Assembly: GCF_018070465.1 (NCBI RefSeq)
Contig: NZ_JAGPXT010000002.1
Location: 1-64,000 of the forward strand
Origin: Micromonospora sp. C95
GTDB lineage: Bacteria > Actinomycetota > Actinomycetes > Mycobacteriales > Micromonosporaceae
Direction: 5' to 3'
Length of the DNA: 64,000 bases
A program made the position numbers and the translations under genes. The notes under the pieces are model-generated. The model worked only from the letters and a program-made list of their open reading frames with translations. It did not search any database and was not told the origin of the DNA. Below, piece after piece: positions 15,707 to 55,106 of the stretch (positions are counted from its first letter, which is position 1; every line of letters starts with the position of its first letter).

Positions 15707-16168
15707 GTGACCGCACCACGACGCCCCGAGTGCTCGGTGCCGCTGGTGGAGGTGGCCATCACCGAGTTCGATCTGAGCTGCCTGCCGGAGACCGGCGCGG
15801 TCCTCGATCAGCTCCTGGCCCTGCGTCCCCGCCAGGTCGTGGTCGACCTGGCCGGCTGTCGGCACATCGACGCCGCCGCCATCGGCCTGCTGCTCGACGT
15901 GCACCGTCGGATGGTCCGTGCCGGCGGTGTGCTGGCCGTACGCAATCCGAACCCGCGCATCACCCGCATCCTGCAGACCGCCCGGCTGGACCAGATCCTG
16001 CCGGTGCACACCGACGCCGGGGCCACCTCGGCCCCGATCGCCGAGGCGGCCCCCGCCGCACCTGCCACCGCCGCACCGGGCGTGCTACCGGCCGACGGGA
16101 CACCGGCACCGGGTACGGTGCCGCGCGCCGCCGCGTACGGCCGCGCCGCTGTCACCGTACGCACCTGA
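15707..16168 (+). CDS. STAS-domain protein (anti-sigma-factor antagonist type)
   Basis: Protein of about 153 residues with a STAS domain over roughly residues 12-105. VVVDLAGCRHIDAAAIGLLL contains the conserved strand and helix, but the Ser/Thr normally phosphorylated by an anti-sigma kinase (D-S-x-G/A) is Ala here (DAAAIG). The tail (residues 105-153) is Ala/Pro-rich and disordered. Such proteins regulate sigma factors by partner switching. GTG 15707 is preceded by GGAGAGG. It is divergent from the response regulator and first in a likely three-gene plus-strand unit. Confidence 0.75.
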   Translation: MTAPRRPECSVPLVEVAITEFDLSCLPETGAVLDQLLALRPRQVVVDLAGCRHIDAAAIGLLLDVHRRMVRAGGVLAVRNPNPRITRILQTARLDQILPVHTDAGATSAPIAEAAPAAPATAAPGVLPADGTPAPGTVPRAAAYGRAAVTVRT

Positions 16169-16211
16169 CACACCGCAGCCGACGCATCTGACCGCGAGCA
16201 CGAGGAGCAGC

Positions 16212-16481
16212 ATGACCAGCGCCGGGATCGCCACGGCCCTCGCCGTCGGCCTCGCCGTCGGCGCGCTCAGCCGACTGGTCCTGCCCGGCCGTCCGGCTGC
16301 GCCGCTGTGGCTCACCATGACCATCGGCGCCGTCGCCTCGCTGCTCGGTGCCATCACCGCCTGGCTCGCCGGCGTACAGGGGTTCAGTCTCCTGGGCCTG
16401 GTCGTGCAGGCCGGGCTCGCCGCGGTCGCGGTGGTGATCGTGGTCGCCACCACCGGCAAGGAACGCTCCGACTCCCTGTGA
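16212..16481 (+). CDS. Small membrane protein (GlsB/YeaQ/YmgE-like)
   Basis: Membrane protein of 89 residues with three hydrophobic segments: IATALAVGLAVGALSRLVL, a central LWLTMTIGAVASLLGAITAW and a C-terminal AGLAAVAVVIVVAT. Size and the Gly-rich first helix followed by a basic turn fit the transglycosylase-associated GlsB/YeaQ/YmgE family, whose function is poorly known and often linked to stress response. GAGGAG precedes the ATG. It sits between two STAS genes on the same strand, suggesting a shared stress-related unit. Confidence 0.65.
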   Translation: MTSAGIATALAVGLAVGALSRLVLPGRPAAPLWLTMTIGAVASLLGAITAWLAGVQGFSLLGLVVQAGLAAVAVVIVVATTGKERSDSL

Positions 16482-16566
16482 GGAGTCCGTACGGCGACGG
16501 TGCCCCACCCGCCGCCCCGAGTCCCGTACCCCGGCCGATCGGCCGCGGCACCGGAGAGGAAGCAGG

Positions 16567-17244
16567 ATGACCGTCGTACCGGACGACAACCTGATGACCC
16601 TGATCTGCGACGTCTGTGGTGAGACCACCACCGGCACCGCATGTGTGCTGCCCGACGCCGAGGTTGTCTGGACGCTGGTCTCCGACCACGGGTGGAGCGG
16701 TTCACCGTTCGCCACCGGCCCGCACCGCTGCCCCCGGTGCAGTGCGCTGCCGCCGGGCAGCTCGCCCGGTGACGCCGACCGCGGTGGGTCCGGTGGCGTC
16801 GCCGAGGTGGCGGTGGTGCCCACCGACGGCGGCGGCGACCAGGACAGCGGGGACGCGCTGCGGGCCGCGCTGCGCGGCGCGTTCGACGTGGCCGGGACGG
16901 TGGTGGTGGACCTGACCCACGTGCAGGTCATCGACTCGCTCGGGCTGGGCATGCTCGTCCGGGCGCACCGGGACGTACGCGAGCGCGGCGGACGGCTCTG
17001 CCTCGCCGCGCCGTCGAGGTTCATCCGCACCGTGCTGCACACGATGAAGCTCGACGGGGTGTTTCCGATCTTCGACAGCCTCGACGCCGCCCTCGATCAG
17101 CTGCGCGTCGCGGCGCTGCAGGACGCCGTCTCGGCCGGCGTCTCGCCGGTCGACGTGACGCCGTCCGACGTGCCGCGTCCGGCCGCCGAGGTGCCGTCGG
17201 TGCCCACGCCCCGCCGCCGTGCGGCCAGCCGCGTCACCGTCTGA
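16567..17244 (+). CDS. STAS-domain protein with N-terminal Cys4 zinc-ribbon-like segment
   Basis: Protein of about 225 residues. Residues 10-60 contain CDVCGE and, about 40 residues later, CPRC: two CxxC knuckles that could bind zinc. A linker follows, then a STAS domain around residues 75-190 with VVVDLTHVQVIDSLGLGMLV. Here the phospho-acceptor Ser (D-S-L-G) is present, unlike the STAS protein two genes upstream. The C-terminus is Pro/Ala-rich. Zinc-ribbon plus STAS is not the standard anti-anti-sigma layout. AGGAAGCAGG precedes the ATG. It may act with the upstream STAS gene in partner switching. Confidence 0.75.
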   Translation: MTVVPDDNLMTLICDVCGETTTGTACVLPDAEVVWTLVSDHGWSGSPFATGPHRCPRCSALPPGSSPGDADRGGSGGVAEVAVVPTDGGGDQDSGDALRAALRGAFDVAGTVVVDLTHVQVIDSLGLGMLVRAHRDVRERGGRLCLAAPSRFIRTVLHTMKLDGVFPIFDSLDAALDQLRVAALQDAVSAGVSPVDVTPSDVPRPAAEVPSVPTPRRRAASRVTV

Positions 17245-17260
17245 CCGCTGCCCTGCCGGC

Positions 17261-17292
17261 GGCCGGCCCTGGATGGCACCGGGTCGCCGGCC
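17261..17292. terminator. Hairpin between convergent STAS and MarR genes
   Basis: GGCCGGC (17261-17267) pairs with GCCGGCC (17286-17292) around an 18-base loop in the 53-base gap between two convergent genes. It could act in both directions. Confidence 0.4.
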
Positions 17293-17297
17293 TTCCG

Positions 17298-17825
17298 TCA
17301 CTCCACCACCGAATCCGCCCACTGCTGCCACCAGGCTCCGTCGGTGAGTTCACCGGCAGCGCGCAGTACCGCCACCAGCGCGCCGGTGGTGACGTCGGTG
17401 TCGCCGGGGCGCAGGTCGGCAAGCATCCGCTCCAGTTCCTGCTGTCGGGCTCGCATGCCCAGGCCGACGAGTTCCTTGCCGGCGACGGTCAGCCCGACCC
17501 AGGCAGCCCGACGGTCGGCCCGCCGCTCGTGCCGTGCCACCAGCCCTTTGCGGACCAGCCGGTCGCACATCCGGGTGGCGGTGGACGACTGCACGCCGAG
17601 CAACTTCGCCAGGTCGACCACCCGCTGCGGGCCGGGCACCAGCACCACGAGCGTCCGAAACTGCTGCAGCGTCACATCGGCGTCGATGCGCGCCAGCGTC
17701 CGCATGGCGACGGCCACCATCACCCGGCTCAGCGAGACGAGGGCGCCGACGAACTCGTCGGCCGGCTCGCCGCGCACGTCGTCCGTCATCGCCATCGGGT
17801 CGGACTGGATGGTCATGTCCTCCAT
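17298..17825 (-). CDS. MarR-family transcriptional regulator
   Basis: Regulator of about 175 residues with a MarR winged-helix fold. LTLQQF-like helices (DVTLQQFRTLVVLVPG) lead to the recognition region VVDLAKLLGVQSSTATRMCD, followed by RLVRKGLVARHERRADRRAA and the wing LTVAGKELV. MarR proteins are usually dimeric repressors relieved by small ligands. It is divergent from the MFS exporter at 18591, a classic regulator-exporter arrangement, though 765 bases separate them. Three in-frame ATGs (17825, 17816, 17795) are possible; the first was taken, while GGAGG just before 17816 supports the second. Confidence 0.85.
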   Translation of the reverse strand: MEDMTIQSDPMAMTDDVRGEPADEFVGALVSLSRVMVAVAMRTLARIDADVTLQQFRTLVVLVPGPQRVVDLAKLLGVQSSTATRMCDRLVRKGLVARHERRADRRAAWVGLTVAGKELVGLGMRARQQELERMLADLRPGDTDVTTGALVAVLRAAGELTDGAWWQQWADSVVE

Positions 17826-18396
17826 GCTGGCACAACACGGGCCGGATCGGGACGACCGGTCCACATAGGGGACAACTGCGACACCGACCGTGACTGGATG
17901 GCCGCTCCGGGCCATGGGGAACGGTTGTCGCCGACACCGTGCCGCCCCACCTGCTCGGGTTGCGCCCGGTCCGCGCGGAGCGACGCCGATCGCGTACCGA
18001 CCGGCCGGAGATCGTTTTCCGGGAAGCGGCGCAGCTCGCGCCCGAGCTGCACGAGGCCAGTCCCGATCGCGCGACGCCGGCGGCTGCCCTGCTCGACGCA
18101 TTTGTATAGACCCCGGCGCGTTACGGGAAGATGGCCAGCAATTCACGAACGAATATGCTCGGAAATTGCGGAGGCGGTTGCCCGACGGGTCGCGGTCCGG
18201 GACTTGTCGCGGAGGTGATGCCGCTGCGGGCGCGACCCGACGGTGCGGTGCGCACGCCTCTCAACGACAGCTCCGACAGGGCCTTTGAAGTGCGGAAATG
18301 GCGGTAAACGTCAACACGGCGACAGCACTGGGTGGGCCTGTTGATCACCTTGAGTGAGCCTAGCACCGATCGACGTGACCGTGCAACGCTCGCCGA

Positions 18397-18412
18397 CTGA
18401 TCGATAGATCAG
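18397..18412. promoter_or_regulatory. Palindrome upstream of the MFS gene, candidate operator
   Basis: CTGATCGATAGATCAG is a perfect 6-bp inverted repeat around GATA, about 90 bases upstream of the predicted -35 element. Position between a MarR gene and an exporter makes it a candidate operator, but the motif is short and unproven. Confidence 0.3.
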
Positions 18413-18499
18413 AGCCCGTCAAACTGGTCGCAAACAGGGTGAGCCACCCGGAGGCAGCAATTCATGACCACTCACCGAAATGAGTCAAATAATTGACGG

Positions 18500-18528
18500 T
18501 TGTCACCCGGGAAACACCCTTGTAGATT
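18500..18528 (+). promoter_or_regulatory. Candidate promoter of the first MFS gene
   Basis: TTGTCA (18500-18505) and TAGATT (18523-18528) are separated by 17 bases. Transcription would begin near 18535, giving a leader of about 55 bases with GGAGG upstream of the ATG. Confidence 0.5.
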
Positions 18529-18590
18529 TCGGTGGTCGCCAATTCGCCGACGTTCTTCTCGTCTCAGGACAGCTCGGAGGTCGGTAGTCC

Positions 18591-20384
18591 ATGTCCGAAT
18601 CCCGCACTGTCGACGTGGCACCCGCGAAACGCCGCGGACCACTCGGATTCCTGCTCGGCGTGACGCTGGTGACGGCCGGCGTCCTGTTTCAACTGCCCGA
18701 CGTGAAGATGATGATCGACCATGCCCGGATGGGGTCGGCCGAGCCCGGCACGGACGGCATGGCCGACATGCCGGGCATGGAGGGCATGGCCCCCGGCGAG
18801 CCGATGGACATGTGGACGCCGACGATGATCCTCGGCATGCTGCTGCTCCTCGTCGGCCTGCTGGTGGCCGGGCGGGCGTTGTTCGCGGGAGTCCAGCGAC
18901 CGGACTCCGCGAGCGTCACCGTGGAGTCGATCGAGCATGGCCGGCTGCGACCGGCGTACTGGATCACCTGCGCGGTGCTGACCATCGCCCTGGTGGTCGA
19001 CATCATGAAGCCACTCACCCTCGGTTTCGTCATGCCCGGCATGAGCGACGAGTACGGCATGTCCCTCGAATCGATCTCGATCCTGCCCCTGGTGGCCCTC
19101 ACCGGCACGGCCGTGGGTTCGGTCCTCTGGGGCCTGCTCGGCGACCGGTACGGGCGGCGGACCGCCCTGCTCCTGGCCACCCTGCTGTTCATCGCGACCT
19201 CGGCGTGCGGCGCCATGCCCACCTTCGAGTGGAACCTCGTCATGTGCTTCACGATGGGCACCTCCGCCGGTGGCCTGCTGCCCCTGGTGTTCACCCTGAT
19301 CGCCGAGCTGACCCCACGCCGGCACCGCGGCTGGGTGGCGGTGACCGTCGGCGGGATCGGTGGTCTGGGCGGTTACCTGGCGGCCAGCGAGGCGGCGAGC
19401 CACCTGGAGCCGACGCTGACCTGGCGCGCGCTCTGGTTGATCGGGCTGCCCTCCGGGCTGCTGCTGTTGCTGCTGGCGCCGTTGATCCCCGAGTCGCCGC
19501 TGTACCTGCTGCGCGCCGGGCGGCGTACCGAGGCGGAGAGGGTGCTCCGTCGCTACGGATCCCACCTGGGTGCCACGCCACCGGCCGCCGACACCGTCGC
19601 CGCCGCGACGCGCCCCGGCGTGGGCGCGATGCTGCGGGCGTACCCCGTGGTGACATCGGTGATCGGGGTGGTCGGTGTCGTCTGGGGCCTGGTGAACTTC
19701 GGCTTCCTGGTGATGTTGCCCGCGCAACTGCGCGAGGCGGGCCTGGCCGGCGGTGTCGCGAGCGGGTTGCTGGCCGACTCGGCGCTCTACTCCACCCCCG
19801 CCCTGGTGCTGGTCGTGCTGCTCTACGCGGCCTGGAGCGGCCGCCGCGCGCTGGCGCTGTTCATCACGATCACCGCGCTCGGGCTCGGCGGAGTGGCCCT
19901 CTGGAGCACCGCCAGCGGCGGGACGATGCTGCTGCTGGCCTCCATCGGACTGCTGGTGCTGTCGCTGTCGGCGGTGAACGCGATGCTGCTGCCGTACAGC
20001 GCCGAGATCTACCCGACCGCGATGCGGGCCACCGGCTCCGGCTTCGCCGGTGCGGCCACCAAGGTCGGCGGCATCCTCGGACCGTCCACCATGCTGCTGG
20101 TCCTCTCCCTCGGTGGCGGGCTCGTCGCGCCGGCCGTCGTGCTGGGTGTGCTGTGCCTGGCCGCCACGGTCCTGCTGCTGGTGTTCGGGCCGGAACTGGG
20201 CGCCTCCGTCGGGCCGCTCGCGCGTCGCGGGGTCGGCGCCGTGTCGGTGGACCGGACCAGGGCCGCGCCACCCGCCGACCCGTGGCCGGCGACCGGCAAC
20301 GGTGTGCCGGCGACCCGGCCGGCAGCCTCCGACGACGACGATCCGCGGGACGCCCGCCCGGCCGCGACACCCACCCGCACGTAG
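18591..20384 (+). CDS. MFS transporter with methionine-rich extracytoplasmic loop
   Basis: Membrane transporter of about 597 residues. Residues 115-540 form a 12-helix MFS core of the sugar/aromatic-acid-porter type: GLLGDRYGRRTALL is the loop 2-3 signature and PRRHRGW the loop 4-5 motif. Ahead of it lie two extra helices (residues 17-36 and 78-100) joined by a loop with about ten methionines in residues 40-80 (GMADMPGMEGMAPGEPMDM). Such Met clusters bind copper or silver in metal-handling proteins; in an MFS protein this is unusual. The last 60 residues are disordered. It is followed 75 bases later by a second exporter gene. Substrate unknown; the adjacent peptide cluster makes product export possible. 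Confidence 0.8.
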   Translation: MSESRTVDVAPAKRRGPLGFLLGVTLVTAGVLFQLPDVKMMIDHARMGSAEPGTDGMADMPGMEGMAPGEPMDMWTPTMILGMLLLLVGLLVAGRALFAGVQRPDSASVTVESIEHGRLRPAYWITCAVLTIALVVDIMKPLTLGFVMPGMSDEYGMSLESISILPLVALTGTAVGSVLWGLLGDRYGRRTALLLATLLFIATSACGAMPTFEWNLVMCFTMGTSAGGLLPLVFTLIAELTPRRHRGWVAVTVGGIGGLGGYLAASEAASHLEPTLTWRALWLIGLPSGLLLLLLAPLIPESPLYLLRAGRRTEAERVLRRYGSHLGATPPAADTVAAATRPGVGAMLRAYPVVTSVIGVVGVVWGLVNFGFLVMLPAQLREAGLAGGVASGLLADSALYSTPALVLVVLLYAAWSGRRALALFITITALGLGGVALWSTASGGTMLLLASIGLLVLSLSAVNAMLLPYSAEIYPTAMRATGSGFAGAATKVGGILGPSTMLLVLSLGGGLVAPAVVLGVLCLAATVLLLVFGPELGASVGPLARRGVGAVSVDRTRAAPPADPWPATGNGVPATRPAASDDDDPRDARPAATPTRT

Positions 20385-20459
20385 TTGCGCAACCACTGTC
20401 GGCACGGAAGCCTCTAGCACGGCAACGGGCGTGACAACCGAGAAGAACGAGGAGCGTCG

Positions 20460-22019
20460 ATGGCCACTGAGGACGAAGGTCGACCACGGGGCGCCCGGCT
20501 GGTGCTGCTCATCCTCCTGGTGGCACAGATCATGGCGACGATGGACAACTCCATCGTCGCGGTGGCCACCAAGACCATCAAGGATGACCTGAATACCTCC
20601 GGCGCCGTACTGCAACTGATCCTGTCCGGGTACACACTGATGTTCGCGGTGCTCGTGGTCACCGGCGCGCGTCTCGGCGGCGACGTGGGACACCGGCGGC
20701 TGTTCATGATCGGGCTGGCCGGCTTCACCGCCAGCTCCCTGCTCTGCGGAATCGCCCCGACCGCGAGCACGCTGGTCGCCGCCCGCCTGCTGCAAGGGGC
20801 CTTCGGGGCCATGATGGTGCCGCAGGTGCTCTCGGTGATCCAACTCGTCTTCACCGGGCCGGCCCGGGCCCGCGCAATCGGGCTCTACTCGATGGTGCTG
20901 GCGCTCGGCGTGGCCGCCGGTCAGATCGCCGGCGGCGTGATCGTCAGCGCCGACGTGCTGGGCAGCGGCTGGCGAGCCGCGTTCCTGGTCAACGTGCCGA
21001 TCGGGCTGGCCCTGCTGGCGGCGGCGCCACGTTACCTGCCCGGGCACACGTCCAACTCGCGGTTCCGGCCCGACATCGTCGGCATCCTGCTGCTCGCCGT
21101 CTCGATGGGCGCGGTGGTCGCACCGCTGGTCTTCGGGCGGGAACAGGGTTGGCCCGCGTGGGCCCTGGCCAGCGTCGCCGCCGGCACCGTCGGGCTGGTC
21201 CTCTTCGTGCGGTACGAGCTGCGGCTGGGCGCCCGGGGCGGACAGCCCGTGCTGGAGATCGACGCGCTGCGACCGCGAGGCGTCAAGTCGGGACTGCTGG
21301 CCTGCTGCATCCTCAACTTCGCCTTCGCCGGGGTGCTGTTCCCGCTCACCCTGCACGTGCAGAACGGGCTTGGCTACACGCCGCTGCAGGCCGGGCTGAT
21401 GTTCATCCCGTACCCCGTGGGGTTCGCGGCCGTCAGCCTCACCTGGACGCGGCTGCCGAAACGATTCCACCGTCCGCTGCCGGTCGCCGGCCTGCTGGTG
21501 TTCGCCCTTGCCCTGGCCGCACTCGCGGTCGTGGTGGCCGGCGGCTGGCCGATCGCGGTGGTGTCGGCGCTGCTGCTGCTCGCCGGTGCGGGCATGGCGG
21601 CCGGTTTCAGCACGCTCGTGGAGCAGACGGCCGCGACCGTGGGGCCCCGCTACGCCGCCGCCCTGTCGGCCCTGGTCTCGACCGGGACGCTGCTGGCCAG
21701 CGTGGTCAGTGTGGTCGTCGTCGGTGGCGTCTACCTGGCGACCGCCGAGAACGACCCGAGCCGCTCCGCGCTCGGGTTGAGCCGTAGCCTCTGGGTCGAC
21801 GCCGGTCTGCTGATGCTGGGGTTCCTGCTGGCCTACCGGACCTGGCGGCTGTCCACCCGGGTGCCGGCCGAGCCGGCACCGACCGGCGACGCTGCCGAGC
21901 AGGTGGAGGCCGTGGCGGCGCCGGGCAACGCACCCCCCGGGGAGGTCGAGGCCGAGCCGGAGGCGGGCCTGGTCGAGGAGACGTCCACGCCGACCGGAGC
22001 GCGCCCCGCCCCGAGGTGA
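20460..22019 (+). CDS. DHA2-family MFS drug:H+ antiporter
   Basis: Fourteen-helix MFS efflux protein of about 519 residues, the usual DHA2 length. Motif A-like GARLGGDVGHRRLFMIGL follows helix 2, the first helix carries MATMDNSIVAVA (the D-x-T/S-I-V-N/A motif of DHA2 members), and motif C-like GVAAGQIAGGVIV is in helix 5. The C-terminus is Glu/Pro-rich. These proteins export hydrophobic drugs and natural products against protons. GAGGAGCG precedes the ATG. It follows the first MFS gene on the same strand and converges on the NRPS genes with a shared terminator, so it may export or give resistance to the cluster's product. Confidence 0.85.
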   Translation: MATEDEGRPRGARLVLLILLVAQIMATMDNSIVAVATKTIKDDLNTSGAVLQLILSGYTLMFAVLVVTGARLGGDVGHRRLFMIGLAGFTASSLLCGIAPTASTLVAARLLQGAFGAMMVPQVLSVIQLVFTGPARARAIGLYSMVLALGVAAGQIAGGVIVSADVLGSGWRAAFLVNVPIGLALLAAAPRYLPGHTSNSRFRPDIVGILLLAVSMGAVVAPLVFGREQGWPAWALASVAAGTVGLVLFVRYELRLGARGGQPVLEIDALRPRGVKSGLLACCILNFAFAGVLFPLTLHVQNGLGYTPLQAGLMFIPYPVGFAAVSLTWTRLPKRFHRPLPVAGLLVFALALAALAVVVAGGWPIAVVSALLLLAGAGMAAGFSTLVEQTAATVGPRYAAALSALVSTGTLLASVVSVVVVGGVYLATAENDPSRSALGLSRSLWVDAGLLMLGFLLAYRTWRLSTRVPAEPAPTGDAAEQVEAVAAPGNAPPGEVEAEPEAGLVEETSTPTGARPAPR

Positions 22020-22048
22020 CCGGGGTCGCCGGGTGATGATGCTCGTCC

Positions 22049-22083
22049 GGGGCCCGCCCAGACCGATCGTCCGGGCGGGCCCC
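22049..22083. terminator. Bidirectional terminator between the exporter and NRPS genes
   Basis: GGGGCCCGCCC (22049-22059) and GGGCGGGCCCC (22073-22083) form a perfect 11-bp stem with a 13-base loop. It lies 29 bases after the MFS stop and 8 bases after the NRPS stop, serving both convergent transcripts. Confidence 0.65.
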
Positions 22084-22091
22084 GACTCCGG

Positions 22092-25000
22092 TCAGCCGAG
22101 GTCGAGCACCCGCGCCACCTGGTCGTCGATGAGGGCTGCCAGCGCGGGCAGGTGCTGCGGGGACCACATCGAGTAGTGGTCGCCCGGCAGCGTCACCACC
22201 TCCATCGCCGGGCTCCACCGGCGCCACGCCGCGCGGCTGACCTCCCGCTGCGCCTGCACCAGGACCGTCCGGCCGGCGTACGGTGCCGGCTGGTAGCCGT
22301 AGATGGCCCGCATGTTGGCGCGGAACACCGCGTACCGGTGGGCGACGAAGTCGGCCCGCACGTCCGACGGGATCAGTCCGTGCCGGACCAGGAACCCGGT
22401 GAGCGCCCCGATCGGATCGGTCGCGTCGACCACCGCGGCGTCCAGCGGCGGTGCCGGTGCCGCGGAGAGCCCGGCCAGGTCGGCGACGAAGGTCTCCATC
22501 ACCTGCCGCTCACTCGGCAGCGGCAACGGGCCGGGCTCGTTGGAGTCGATCATCACCACGAGATCCGGTGCCGCACCCGCGGCGGCGAGTTGCCGGGCCA
22601 TCTCGAAGCACAGGAAGCCCCCCATCGACCAGCCGGCGAGCAGGTACGGCCCGTTCGGCTGCCGCTCGCGCAGCGCACCGACGTACCGCCCGGCGAGCGT
22701 CACCAGGTCGTCGACCGGGTCGATGCCGCCCTCCAGTCCCGGCGCCTCGAAGCCGTCCATCGGCTGCTCCGGATGCAACGCCCGGCTCAGCGGGAGATAC
22801 CAGTACGGCGAGCCGGAGACCGCGTGCGGGCAGTAGAGCCGGGGCCGCGAGCCGGTGGGCTTGAGGGTGACAAGTGGCGAGGCGTCCACCACCGGTCCGT
22901 GGTCGACGAACCGGGCCACCGACCGGACGGTGGGGGTGGCATAGAACTGCTTGAGCGACACCGACGTGCCGATCCGCCCGGCGATGCGGGCCAGCACGTG
23001 CGCCGCCTGCAACGAGTGCCCGCCGAGGTCGAAGAAGGACGTCTCCACGCCCACCCGCGGCACCCCCAGCACCTCCGCGAAGATCTCCGCTACCCGGCGC
23101 TCGGCCCCGGTGGTGGGGGCCGCCCCGGTGTCGTCGGTCTCCACTGCCTCCGGTGCCGGCAGCGCCCGCCGGTTGACCTTGCCGCTGGTGGTCAGTGGCA
23201 GCGCGGGCAGCCGGACGAACCCGCCGGGCACCAGGTGGGCGGGCAGCTCCGTGCCCAGGTGCGTCCGCAACGTCGCGTCGGTGGCCGGTTCGGCGGCGTC
23301 CACCACGTACCCGACGAGCCGCTGTACCCCGTTGCCGTCGCGCACCACGGTCACGGCGGCCCGGGCCACCCCGGGGTGCCGGCTCAGCAGTGCCTCGATC
23401 TCGTCGAGTTCGACGCGCAGGCCCCGCAACTTCACCTGGCCGTCCAGCCGGCCGCCGAAGTGCAGCCGGCCCTGCGCGTCCCAGTGACCGCGATCGCCGG
23501 TGCGGTAGACCCGCCCCTGCGGATCGAACGGATCCACGGTGAACCGACGCCCGGTCAGCTCCTCGTCGTTGAGGTAGCCGGTGCTCAGCGCCGCGCCACC
23601 GATCAGGATCTCCCCCGGCACCCCGACCGGGACCGGGTTGTCCCAGCGGTCGACCAGGTAGGTGCGGCGGTTCGGCATCGTCGTGCCGATCGGCGGCGGG
23701 GTGGGTGCCGACCAGTCCGTGCAGTCGTGGGCGAGGCAGCCCACCGTGGCCTCGGTCGGGCCGTACAGGTTGACGAACCGGCGCCGGTCCGGACGCGCCC
23801 ACCGGGCCACCAGGTCGGCGGGGCACACCTCGCCGCCGACCAGCACCTCCCGCAGCGCGTCGAACCGGTCGGTGTCGTCCTCGACCAGACCGAGCGTCGT
23901 CGGCGTCAGGAACAGGTGCGTGATCCGTTCGGCCGCCAGCACCTCGGCCAGCCCGCCCGGCGAGAGCAGCCGGTCCTTGCCGATCACCACCACCGTGGCG
24001 CCGGAGGTGAGCGCCGCCAGCACCTCACCCGCGGCCAGGTCGAACACCGGCGCACAGCCGTGCAGCACCCGGTCGCCGGGCCCGCAGCGCCACTGGTCAC
24101 GCATCCAGTCCAGGTAGGTGGCGAAACCCCGGTGCGGCAGCTGGACGCCCTTCGGGTCACCCGTCGTGCCCGAGGTGTGCAGCACGTACGCCAGGTCGTC
24201 CGGGCCGGTCGACGGCTCCGGGGCGAGCCCGGCGCCGGAGTCCAGGTCGCCGGCGTCGAGCAGGAGCGTCCGCCACGGACCGTCCGGTACGCCATCGGCA
24301 TGCTCGGTGCGGGTGAGCACGAGCCGGGCGGCACAGTTGGTCAGGATCCGGCGCAGCCGGTTCGGCGGGGCCGCGGTGTCCAGCGGCACGTACACCCCAC
24401 CGGCGTGCCAGATCGCCAGCGGCGTCAGCACCTCGTCGACGCCCCGGTCCAGCAACGCCGGCACCCGGTCGCCGGGTCGCAGGCCAGCGGCGCGCAGTCC
24501 GGCCGCCCGCCGCGCGGCCCGGTCCAGCAGCTCGCGGTAGGTCAGCTCGTGATCGGCGTCCCGGACGGCCACCGCGTCGGGGGTGCGCTCGGCCTGCGCC
24601 CGGACCAGTTGGTGGACGGTGGCCGGGGTGACCTCCCGGCGCGCGCCCGCACCGAGGGCCAACACCCGCTCCCGTTCGGCGGGATCGAGCATCGGCAACC
24701 GCGACAGGGGCGTACCCGGCTCGGCCAGGCCCGCGTCGAGCAGCCGCGCGACGTGGTCGAGCATGGCCCGCACCCGCCGCGCGTCGAACAGGTCGGTGGA
24801 GTACTCGGTGAGCACCGAGTACCGGTCACCGTGGTCGACCAGGCTGACCATCATGTCGAAGCGGGACCGGTCCAACCGCAGGTCGACCGGGGTGCTGTCG
24901 GTGCCGGGCAGCGTCGGTCCGCCCCAGGTGGAGCCGTCCAGCAGCTGCACGGCCACCTGGAACAACGGGTTGCGGCCCGGGTCGCGGGGTGGGGCGAGCC

Positions 25001-52209: not shown

Positions 52210-52743
52210 TCACTCCTCGGCGGCGATCACCTCCCGGCGGGTCGGCACCGAGGAGACCGGATAGGAGCCGGCGGCGTGCGTGTTGTGGAAGGCCAGCGCG
52301 ATGCCGAGCAGGATCACGCAGCCGAGCAGGACAGGTACGAAGAGAAACAGCCACCCGGGCTGCGCCAGCATCACGAGTACGGTGTCGCCGCCGGCCGGCG
52401 GGTGGAATGACCGGGTCAGTCCCATCAGGGCCATGGCCAGGCCGACTGCGGCGGCGATGGTCCACGGGGCGTTTCCCAGCACGCGTACGCCGAGCAGGCC
52501 GACCAGCGTGCAGATCGTGTGTCCACCGAGGACGTTGCGCGGCTGGGCGAACGGCGCCTGCGGCGCCCCGAAGATCATCATGCAGGTGGAGCCCAGCGGC
52601 GCGATCAACAGGGGCGTACCGGCCAGCAACGCCACCGAGCCCACCGCGCCGATGCCCAGGGTGCCGCCCACCCCGGCGAGCACCGCCGTCCGAGGTGGCC
52701 ACGGGCGTCCGACTCCACGCACCAACGACCGTACGACAAGCAC
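52210..52743 (-). CDS. HPP-family membrane protein
   Basis: Membrane protein of about 177 residues with four or five hydrophobic helices. LGSTCMMIFGAPQAPFAQPR and RSFHPPAGGDTVLVML contain the HPP motif that names the family. Some HPP proteins are nitrite transporters in chloroplasts and cyanobacteria; the role in actinomycetes is unknown. GTG 52743 is preceded by GGGGGA. It lies 113 bases upstream of the third NRPS gene on the same strand and could share its transcript, or simply mark the cluster edge. Confidence 0.8.
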   Translation of the reverse strand: MLVVRSLVRGVGRPWPPRTAVLAGVGGTLGIGAVGSVALLAGTPLLIAPLGSTCMMIFGAPQAPFAQPRNVLGGHTICTLVGLLGVRVLGNAPWTIAAAVGLAMALMGLTRSFHPPAGGDTVLVMLAQPGWLFLFVPVLLGCVILLGIALAFHNTHAAGSYPVSSVPTRREVIAAEE

Positions 52744-53149
52744 GCGCTTCCCCCAGCCATGCCTTGATGTTGCCGTCGCGTTAACGAAACCGCGCCCGAA
52801 AGGGCTCTCGATCCCACGAATCCCGACCCACGGAGCGGGCGCCGCCCGCCCTCCAGCCTTCGATTGGCACCCCGGACAGCTCGACTACCAGGCAAGACAT
52901 TGGCTCCTCGGCCCCCGCACCGACAGATCCAACGACGGGAAGCTTATCGCTTTGCATGCATCCTGTCACTGGATGGCATGTGGCATGGAAGTGACATTCA
53001 CCGATGTTGCTGATTTGTGGTTATCCCACGCGAGGGACGAGAAAACATGGCCTAACCGGGCACTGACGACATCCCGTGAGAGGTTTCCTGGCGACTGATT
53101 GAACCCATCCACCATCTCCGTCCGTACCTCGGTGCGAAGGGAGTGGCCC
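52744..53149. other. Divergent intergenic region with small hairpin
   Basis: No gene was found. CATGCATCC (52955-52963) and GGATGGCATG (52971-52980) can pair imperfectly around TGTCACT and might be an operator or hairpin. Promoters of the HPP gene (minus) and the secreted-protein gene (plus) must lie here, but no convincing -35/-10 pair was seen. Confidence 0.35.
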
Positions 53150-53944
53150 ATGAAGCGCCTGACCCCGTTGCTCACCCTCCTGTCGGGGGCGGTGACGGCT
53201 GCCGTGCTGTTCACGATGAGTGCACAGGCATCCCCGCCGGGCACCCAACCCGCGGCCGGCGGCGGTGCACCGGCTGCCGCGCCGGCACCACCCGCCGACG
53301 TGGCGGCGGACCCCGACGCCGAGGTGGACCCCGACGCGGCTGCGCCCGACGAGGAACCGAGCGACGCCGACGCCCGCCGACCGGCCGACACCTCGCCGCC
53401 GACGGACCCCGACGCCGCGTCGGCCGGCACCGAGGTGACCTCGGTCGAGCAGAACTGGATCGGTGAACTCGAGAACGGGGCCACCATCGCCATCACCGTC
53501 ACCGACGGCAAGGCCGAGGCGTACGTCTGCGACGGCCGGAGCATGGAGCTGTGGCTGTCCGGCACGGTGCGGGACGGCAGGATCGAGCTGACCGGCAAGG
53601 ACGCGAAGCTGACCGGTGTCATCCGGGGCGACCGCGCCAGCGGCGAGATGATCGTGGGCGTCCGGCGCTGGAAGTTCACCGCCCGACTCGACGACACGGC
53701 GACCGACGAGGCGGTGGTGAAGTCCGGGTCGGGAACCGCACCGGCGATCTACCGGGTGACCGACGAGACCCGTAAGGCCGGCTTCGACGGCGGCTGGATC
53801 ATGCTGCCCGACGGCACCCAGATCGGCATCGTCACCTGGAACGGCAAGCCCATTCCGGCACCGCCGCTGGACCCCGCCTTCAACAGCACGGTGGTCGACG
53901 GCGTCACCCTCGTCGCCGAGCCGGTCGTCCCCGGGGCGCGGTGA
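53150..53944 (+). CDS. Secreted protein of a redox cassette
   Basis: Exported protein of about 264 residues. The signal peptide MKRLTPLLTLLSGAVTAAVL continues to a probable cleavage site near AQA-S. Residues 35-100 are Pro/Ala/Asp-rich and disordered. The rest is beta-rich (WIGELENGATIAITVTDGKA, later GVIRGDRASGEMIVGVRRW), containing one cysteine (YVCDG). I do not recognise the domain. AAGGGAG precedes ATG 53150. Its TGA overlaps the start of the DUF6529 gene (TGATG), and a Rieske gene follows, so it is likely the extracytoplasmic partner of an electron-transfer unit. Confidence 0.65.
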   Translation: MKRLTPLLTLLSGAVTAAVLFTMSAQASPPGTQPAAGGGAPAAAPAPPADVAADPDAEVDPDAAAPDEEPSDADARRPADTSPPTDPDAASAGTEVTSVEQNWIGELENGATIAITVTDGKAEAYVCDGRSMELWLSGTVRDGRIELTGKDAKLTGVIRGDRASGEMIVGVRRWKFTARLDDTATDEAVVKSGSGTAPAIYRVTDETRKAGFDGGWIMLPDGTQIGIVTWNGKPIPAPPLDPAFNSTVVDGVTLVAEPVVPGAR

Positions 53945-54576
53945 TGTCCCAGCACCGGCAGGGCGGGGCACGCACCGTGCCCCGCCGGGCGTCCGAGCCC
54001 ACCATCGAGTTGATGCGTGACTTCGGGGCCCCGCCGCCGAGCGCACCGAGGCGGCGGCCCTCGCTGCTGGTGCCGCTCGTCGTCGGCGCCGGGGTGGCGG
54101 TTGCGCTCGGCGTCTACGGACGCACCCACACCCCCACCGGCATCGCGGTGAACGTGGCCGGCTTCTCCTCGCCGCTGACGGTGAAGGTGTGGCTGGGCAC
54201 CGGGGCGGCGTCCTTCGCCGTCATCCAGGTGCTGTCCGCGCTGGCGATGTGGGGTCGGCTCGGTGGCTTCTCCCCGTCCTGGGCCGGTTCGGTGCACCGC
54301 TGGTCCGGGCGGATCGCGTTCCTGCTCACCGTGCCGGTCGCGGTGCACTGCCTGTACGCGCTCGGCTTCGCCGACTACGACACCCGTACGCTGCTGCACT
54401 CCCTGCTGGGCTGCTTCTTCTTCGGCGCCTTCGCCACCAAGATGCTGACCCTGCCCAAGCGCGGCCTCGCCGGTTGGGTGCTCCCCACGGTCGGCGGGGT
54501 GGTGTTCGTCGCCCTGATCGGTGTCTTCCTGACCTCGTCGGTCTGGTACTTCACCACGTTCGGCATCCAGTTCTGA
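53944..54576 (+). CDS. DUF6529-like membrane protein, possible b-type cytochrome
   Basis: Membrane protein of about 210 residues with a disordered N-terminus and five hydrophobic helices from residue 40 on. Histidines lie in or next to helices (SVHRWSGRIAFLL, VAVHCLYALGF, LLHSLLGCFF), an arrangement seen in b561-like haem proteins. It matches DUF6529 as I recall that family. Together with the Rieske lipoprotein it could pass electrons across the membrane. The ATG overlaps the upstream stop by one base, indicating coupling. Haem binding is an inference. Confidence 0.65.
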   Translation: MSQHRQGGARTVPRRASEPTIELMRDFGAPPPSAPRRRPSLLVPLVVGAGVAVALGVYGRTHTPTGIAVNVAGFSSPLTVKVWLGTGAASFAVIQVLSALAMWGRLGGFSPSWAGSVHRWSGRIAFLLTVPVAVHCLYALGFADYDTRTLLHSLLGCFFFGAFATKMLTLPKRGLAGWVLPTVGGVVFVALIGVFLTSSVWYFTTFGIQF

Positions 54577-54602
54577 TCCCCGGAAAGGCAAGGCACCCGC
54601 AG

Positions 54603-55106
54603 ATGAACCACGAGCAGGCTGGCTGCTGCCGGTCGCGACGCGCCCTGCTGGCCGGTACCGGCGCGGTGGGCGTGGCCGCGCTGGCCGGCTGCGCGACGTA
54701 CGGCCAGCCGACGGCGGCGCCGCCGGCCGGCAGCTCCGGCGCCGCCGACCCGTCGGGCACCTCCGGTGCCGACCCCTCCGGCACCGCCACCCCGGGCGAC
54801 GACGGGGCGGACGCCGGTCCACCGGCACTGGCCACCCTCGCCGACATCCCGGTCGGTGGCGGCGCGATCTTCGCCGACGCCGGCGTGGTGGTGACCCAGC
54901 CGAGCGACGGGGTCATCAAGGCGTACTCGGCGACCTGCACCCACCAGGGCTGCACGGTGACCTCGGTCTCCGACGGCACCATCGTCTGCGCCTGCCACAA
55001 CAGCGTGTTCGACATCGCCGACGGCTCGGTACGCAGTGGCCCGGCGGGAGCCCCGCTGCCCGCCGCGAACGTCACCGTCGACGGTGACGCCATCCGATTG
55101 GCCTGA
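54603..55106 (+). CDS. Rieske [2Fe-2S] Tat-exported lipoprotein
   Basis: Protein of about 167 residues. The N-terminus CCRSRRALLAGTGAVGVAAL followed by AGC combines a twin-arginine-like signal with a lipobox cysteine. A Gly/Ser/Asp-rich linker leads to a Rieske domain with CTHQGC and CACHNSVF, the two Cys-His pairs that hold the [2Fe-2S] cluster. It is anchored at the outer face of the membrane and likely exchanges electrons with the preceding membrane protein. No dehydrogenase or oxygenase partner is adjacent. It is third in a three-gene operon ended by a strong hairpin. Confidence 0.9.
   Translation: MNHEQAGCCRSRRALLAGTGAVGVAALAGCATYGQPTAAPPAGSSGAADPSGTSGADPSGTATPGDDGADAGPPALATLADIPVGGGAIFADAGVVVTQPSDGVIKAYSATCTHQGCTVTSVSDGTIVCACHNSVFDIADGSVRSGPAGAPLPAANVTVDGDAIRLA

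Follow-up and report, generated by a model that had tools for sequence, protein, structure and literature searches.

A methionine-rich N-terminal hairpin marks a patchily distributed bacterial family of MFS transporters with a possible role in soft-metal handling

Results

Gene, predicted fold and topology

The window, i.e., the complete stretch of 64,000 nucleotides analysed from Micromonospora sp. C95, carries a gene for a transporter of the major facilitator superfamily (MFS) whose product is predicted to begin with an additional methionine-rich hairpin. The gene and the elements of its product that are referred to below are the following:

18591..20384, + strand: gene of the Met-hairpin MFS transporter (open reading frame with ATG start, 597 amino acids; Pfam match and AlphaFold2 model)
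18618..18686, + strand: extra N-terminal helix a, residues 10-32 (AlphaFold2)
18687..18818, + strand: Met-rich, presumably extracytoplasmic loop, residues 33-76 (AlphaFold2 and methionine count)
18729..18755, + strand: lineage-specific loop insertion 1, residues 47-55 (alignment)
18777..18815, + strand: Met-rich loop insertion 2, residues 63-75, with M63, M66, M72, and M74 (alignment)
18819..18884, + strand: extra N-terminal helix b, residues 77-98 (AlphaFold2)
18825..18839, + strand: M79xxxM83, outer end of helix b
18951..19055, + strand: MFS TM1 with D137 and K140 (D-x-M-K-P)
19206..19217, + strand: extracytoplasmic TM3 end with C206 and M209
19242..19256, + strand: M218-C219-x-x-M222 in TM4

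Membership in the MFS is indicated by profile as well as by fold. The MFS_1 model of Pfam scores 95.4 bits (curated cut-off, 33.4), the best stretches being residues 143-498 for MFS_1 and 162-532 for Sugar_tr, and no Pfam family of another type was matched by the protein; the predicted model matches MFS structures in Foldseek and VIA-align comparisons. This AlphaFold2 model, built with 61 family sequences (mean pLDDT, 83.8; pTM, 0.84), contains 14 helices, of which helices a and b precede the MFS core with its first long helix at residues 121-155, in agreement with the two extra N-terminal helices postulated in the preliminary description. Helix a lies in a well predicted region (pLDDT of 80, 98, and 94 for the ten-residue blocks over residues 11-40). 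A short helix (residues 35-49) is placed inside the hairpin loop, the detailed shape of which is uncertain because the block values drop to 60-82 over residues 41-80. Motif A (GDRYGRR, residues 184-190) puts the TM2-TM3 loop into the cytoplasm, so that loop 33-76 should be extracytoplasmic according to the established MFS topology, as had been proposed before.

The first 110 residues are covered by no separate Pfam or NCBIfam model, and no curated model of the Met-hairpin MFS family was found in these collections. A structure search with the hairpin alone (a 78-residue fragment of a homologue, pLDDT 85.6) retrieved no match at E <=0.001, a result which is silent on the novelty of the fold. No standalone hairpins were detected in 8 genomes at E 0.01, each genome containing one match, and an Rfam scan of positions 16000-23000 gave no match reaching the gathering threshold.

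The methionine hairpin and its conservation

Ten of the 25 methionines of the transporter fall between residues 40 and 80 (positions 40, 41, 47, 57, 60, 63, 66, 72, 74, and 79), with M83 following just beyond, which bears out the earlier count of about ten. This density of ten methionines per 41 residues was not reached in any of 20000 shuffles of the protein.

Homologues were collected from named genomes, from the family and the class of the window organism, and from plasmids. The search in named genomes picked its candidates by six peptide patterns, and 80 of the 115 relatives were kept; the class-level search used a profile of the hairpin plus TM1, and its hits L125-L127 were thereby selected for the hairpin. 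Three relatives (L044, L061, and L090) were dropped by a start-codon rule and two (L091 and L128) lie outside the final alignment of 88 distinct proteins, but all five were checked separately; L003 was dropped because it missed the threshold of E 1e-8. The aligned relatives are chiefly from Proteobacteria and share about 39-44% identity with the window protein.

The loop is conspicuous across this alignment, methionine accounting for 26% of residues 34-83 versus 3.6% beyond residue 83 (83 distinct rows). All 88 proteins have M60, M79, and M83, and also G30 and G89, so that the objection named in the preliminary description, a loop not conserved among close homologues, does not apply. Strong conservation is also seen for H34 (82/88), M37 (82/88), and M62 (78/88). 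If relatives left out of the alignment are added to the 88 rows, the three invariant methionines are kept in 89 of 92 judgeable N-termini; L061 is outside this number because its N-terminus is masked. The MxxM-type spacing pointed out previously does exist as a run of residues 57, 60, 63, and 66, but only M60 of this run is conserved family-wide, M63 and M66 being located in a lineage-specific insertion.

Two such insertions enlarge the loop of the window protein. The first one has letters only in the rows of the window, V. sediminis, and V. sioxanthis, and is a gap in Allorhizocola and all others, and the second, Met-rich one occurs in 4/88 distinct rows, namely those of the window, V. sediminis, V. 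sioxanthis, and Allorhizocola. These four proteins form one clade (support 1.0), in which the loops vary in length between 47 and 56 residues and stay rich in methionine (10-14 Met), and in which H34 and M37 have been lost. As judged from the alignment, the long Met-rich loop is best regarded as an enlargement, restricted to one lineage, of a feature that the family as a whole conserves.

Altered residues in the transporter core

The family differs from ordinary MFS porters at positions within the core as well. D137 of TM1 is common to the family (88/88) and most control MFS, whereas position 140 is Lys in 88/88 family rows versus Glu or Asp in 22/23 controls, and the position of the motif-B arginine in TM4 is occupied by C219 in 88/88 rows versus Arg in 22/23 controls; note that the controls are weak matches, several of them near-identical, and include the distant member L091, which is the exception in both comparisons. 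SV2A also has an arginine at the position equivalent to C219 in a profile alignment. Further invariant residues are C206 and M209 (both 88/88) at the end of TM3 and M222 (88/88) in TM4, while M218 is found in 86/88 rows, the figures for TM1 and for M218-C219 being inflated within L004-L083 because the search pattern MPGMSDEY lies in TM1 and FEWNLVMC contains M218-C219. Among the relatives found by other routes (L086, L089, L117, L118, L125, and L127), C219 and M222 are present in 6/6 and M218 in 5/6.

MxxxM occurs only twice in the window protein, as M79-M83 and as M218-M222, and each of the two is a family feature; HxxxM does not occur anywhere in it. No substitutions at all are seen for M60, M79, M83, M209, and M222 across the 88 rows. 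Columns conserved to at least 97% make up 6/21 of the Met columns versus 16/266 of the Leu, Ile, Val, Phe, and Ala columns (Fisher p = 0.003, with kinship ignored); because Met columns are thus conserved more often, it seems from the alignment to be methionine itself that matters, rather than bulk hydrophobicity.

Outlying relatives and distribution

The window protein exhibits the complete set of residues by which the family may be delimited, namely a hairpin with M60, M79, and M83 and a core with K140, C206, M209, C219, and M222. The relatives checked separately are instructive in this respect. L044 fits the family, and L090, L091, and L128 each lack parts of the set. L090 has a hairpin-like N-terminus without the hairpin methionines, together with C206N, M218V, and C219S in the core, and retains M209 and M222. 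L091 likewise has a hairpin-like N-terminus devoid of these methionines, shows M209T, M218C, and M222L, and retains K140, C206, and C219. The hairpin methionines and part of the core set have therefore eroded together in both. L128 contains the whole core set and no detectable hairpin, indicating that the core can do without the hairpin.

The distribution of the family is sparse. Counting the centre genome in each case, hairpin matches were obtained in 11/151 genomes from the order of a Rhodanobacter member and in 3/150 from the order of a Variovorax member, and hairpin-plus-TM1 matches in 5/394 genomes from the class of the window organism; in one of these five, the match covers TM1 only. Within the window's genus, a strong match was found in 1/37 other genomes (presumably that of V. 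sediminis), as seen in a first look which scored six candidates per genome. The Met-hairpin MFS transporters are a real bacterial family which is patchily scattered. No published description of it was found in the open literature searched, which does not prove that there is none.

The NRPS island of the window

The window contains a region of 33 kb (20226-53072) with genes for a DHA2-like exporter, NRPS modules, MutE, B12-binding, PALP, lyase, and TPP proteins, and a dehydrogenase. An HPP-family membrane protein is encoded at its far edge (52213-52743, - strand), and an HPP gene also adjoins the Sphingomonas homologue L118. A secreted-type protein without matches, a DUF6529 membrane protein, and a Rieske protein follow in tandem (53144-55103, + strand).

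Between the end of the transporter gene and the gene of the DHA2-like exporter there are 75 bases, and the distance to the first NRPS gene is about 1.7 kb; the locus of V. sioxanthis is arranged alike over the length that it covers. Yet V. sediminis, in which the order of hsp90, two-component genes, both STAS genes, and the transporter gene is that of the window, keeps the transporter in the same flanking context but lacks the MarR, DHA2-like exporter, and NRPS genes there. Here, window position 20226, near the 3' end of the transporter gene, is joined directly to 53072, and the transporter is followed by the unmatched secreted-type protein, the DUF6529 membrane protein and, as placed by synteny, the Rieske protein. 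Regions 17247-18521 (MarR gene) and 20226-53072 are unmatched in the V. sediminis stretches compared, and the best match to the last NRPS gene in this genome is 41% identical. The island may have been lost from V. sediminis or gained by the others; a short similarity at the junction was equalled by 6/1000 shuffles. As V. sediminis retains the transporter in place, the latter is separable from the island.

A search with the two NRPS proteins (E 1e-10) covered 90 homologue loci, 86 of which lack any match. L034 and L127 gave AMP-binding-like matches only, and module-length NRPS matches occurred at two loci, L005 (the same cluster in V. sioxanthis) and L038 (Aquabacterium, about 39% identity). 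The link to the nearby peptide suggested in the preliminary description is rejected on the basis of this search and the V. sediminis synteny, and the function of the transporter is apparently independent of the adjacent peptide gene cluster.

Neighbourhoods of relatives elsewhere

In Proteobacteria, the neighbours of the homologues change from locus to locus. Clustering of open reading frames around 88 loci revealed no common genomic partner, the largest clusters representing shadow frames of the transporter itself. Neither a common partner nor a copper-related family was present among the top 25 of 144 Pfam families, as obtained for 118 of 277 neighbour genes after dereplication and filtering by length and distance. 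An S41 peptidase was encountered seven times among the neighbour genes. When 1.47 Mb of sequence around 80 loci were scanned for motifs, no P-type ATPase came up, and the only matches were three short GMxCxxC frames and one HCHxxxH frame, the latter of which appears to be a shadow frame without a PDB match. Among 901 called genes scanned at 82 loci, there was no copper-gene neighbour either. Thus, the 80 loci did not reveal a credible copper-gene neighbour by motif, which is weak evidence, since only some of 1635 calT genes are located near copper genes according to a report on them (PMC6362234).

Some of the actinobacterial loci point to small-molecule chemistry. Genes for an FAD monooxygenase, an FMN dehydrogenase, a P450, and the Met-hairpin MFS transporter follow each other in this order in members of two actinobacterial families:

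L127:7591-13179 and L130:4513-12565: shared order of FAD monooxygenase, FMN dehydrogenase, P450, and MFS genes

In the L130 genome, which is the same as that of L087, genes for a DUF6282 protein and an aldehyde dehydrogenase come after the MFS gene. Genes for a flavin halogenase and for a DAHP synthase of class II lie around L006, and the copy of S. clavuligerus adjoins an annotated enediyne protein and a polyketide synthase. Enediyne-type genes flank the relative at L117 (1-10254), and the polyketide synthase, 4HBT thioesterase, and NQR2/RnfD-like protein encoded beside the transporter at L128 (9240-17384) would make up a gene set of the enediyne type. No small-molecule pattern was apparent for L125, L126, L131, and L132 in the part of their genes that was scanned, one of the scans being without L132 genes. 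A Sphingomonas plasmid copy sits between genes for an HPP-family protein and a carbonic anhydrase. Directly upstream of a marine homologue, a TonB-dependent receptor and a PepSY_TM protein are encoded (L010:6602-9745), a setting which may represent metallophore uptake of the siderophore type at this one locus.

Discussion

Soft-metal handling as the leading interpretation

Metal substrates are rare among MFS porters. The interpretation that we tentatively place first, barely ahead of a purely organic substrate, is that the Met-hairpin transporters capture and transport a soft metal of the Cu(I)/Ag(I) type, either as ion or on a small organic ligand. Conserved Met and Cys residues in the interior of the transporter apparently form a counterpart to the hairpin methionines. 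This pairing suggests that a soft metal, or a molecule with metal bound to it, is handled. In the mechanism proposed, a secondary transporter of the MFS type would display methionines, plus a histidine in most relatives, on an N-terminal helical hairpin at the outer membrane face. The thioether and thiol groups of the hairpin (M60, M79, and M83), of the outer TM3 end (C206 and M209), and of the outer TM4 half (M218, C219, and M222) might then form one soft-ligand pathway into the central cavity. We infer both that the hairpin and core sets touch and that they bind metal, and import would be the more likely direction than export.

The data fit one soft-ligand site spanning the hairpin and the N-domain, provided that the two sets are in contact. 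The fixed Met/Cys set in the outer half, the two MxxxM motifs, and the joint partial erosion in two relatives are most economically read as such a site, for which Cu(I)/Ag(I), free or complexed, would be the natural ligand. The predicted hairpin, its conservation, the substitutions in the core, the erosion in L090 and L091, and the motifs of the copper sites of CcoA speak for a metal, whereas the lack of copper neighbours in the scans, the operons of organic chemistry, nearest folds that belong to organic-ion and sugar porters, the hairpin-free L128, and the loss of H34 and M37 in the window's clade speak against it. The soft-ligand set on one side and the organic contexts and fold relatives on the other would both be accommodated by a metal carried on an organic molecule. 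The transporter may also be metal-responsive, as offered in the preliminary description.

Other explanations

The reading that follows closest in rank, and which is almost as likely, is that of a transporter for an organic compound such as an aromatic or polyketide-like acid or its product, in which Met and Cys would serve as the lining of a hydrophobic entry, without participation of a metal. The best NCBIfam models, aromatic-acid/H+ symporters and 2A0119 cation transport proteins, are consistent with it although they score far below their cut-offs, as are the likeness of the core fold to SV2A, URAT1, and OCTN2, the monooxygenase-dehydrogenase-P450 operons of two families, the halogenase and DAHP synthase around L006, and the enediyne-type genes at L117 and L128. 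However, a hydrophobic lining should accept Leu or Ile, yet none of the five invariant methionines is replaced in 88 rows, and C219 and K140 displace residues of the usual MFS machinery.

Methionine-rich extracytoplasmic segments may also undergo reversible oxidation, and the hairpin might accordingly serve as a redox element, either as periplasmic oxidant sink or sensor or as a soft packing element stabilising the transporter. We consider this improbable. It would suit the secreted-type, DUF6529, and Rieske proteins after the V. sediminis gene, but this Rieske neighbourhood was encountered in one genus only, and a sink would hardly need M60, M79, and M83 to be fixed and to erode with part of the core. 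Finally, export or import of the adjacent NRPS product by recognition of a metal complex of that peptide is largely refuted by the synteny and the neighbourhood search described above and is highly improbable.

Significance

The most far-reaching version of the soft-metal interpretation is that of an undescribed MFS family moving a soft metal or its complex via a thioether/thiol relay from the hairpin to TM4, with the TM1 acid and the TM4 arginine exchanged for Lys and Cys. As a whole, this version is rather doubtful; if it applies, the replacement of these two residues would imply a coupling different from that of ordinary proton-coupled MFS porters. With its fixed Met/Cys set, its altered TM1/TM4 pair, and no shared partner in Proteobacteria, the transporter offers a clean single-gene system, and even if the metal reading fails, there is still an MFS family which dispenses with the usual motif-B arginine.

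Comparison with known transport systems

From about residue 105 onward, the core is most closely related, in sequence as well as in fold, to the AAHS or metabolite:H+ symporters and the SV2-SLC22-like MFS. None of the structural alignments listed begins before residue 105, the best matches being SV2A and SLC22 porters, and the similarity to all these proteins stops short of the N-terminal hairpin. Moreover, controls of this kind carry the motif-B Arg and the TM1 acid, in contrast to Cys and Lys in the Met-hairpin family. Assignment to any of three curated families was rejected, the scores being 107.1 bits for the AAHS aromatic acid/H+ symporters (TIGR00895; cut-off, 418.55), 93.7 for 2A0119 (TIGR00898; cut-off, 550.75), and 50.7 for SV2 (TIGR01299; cut-off, 637.3).

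The DHA2 exporters share the number of 14 helices with the window protein. In DHA2 proteins, the extra helices are inserted between TM6 and TM7, and the position of those of the window protein at residues 10-32 and 77-98, before TM1, does not allow its assignment to this group. Ctr1 is a small trimeric copper transporter with three helices and without the MFS fold; its outer segment is rich in Met, and an MxxxM follows within one of the membrane-spanning helices. The combination of these two elements is a resemblance only, since the window protein has an MFS profile and fold and is not a member of the Ctr1 family.

The MFS importer CcoA provides a parallel for a soft-metal site. According to the respective publication, CcoA consists of 12 helices and uses MxxxM in TM7 and HxxxM in TM8 as Cu sites, with Cys and Met residues of the periplasmic side being of importance as well (PMC8406296). 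Compared with this description, the window protein differs by its 14 helices, by the location of MxxxM in the N-terminal hairpin and TM4, and by the lack of HxxxM, and since MxxxM occurs only at 79-83 and 218-222, it is not assigned by motif to the CalT/CcoA group as characterised there. What the Met-hairpin family does have in common with CalT/CcoA is the MFS fold and the presence of an MxxxM motif.
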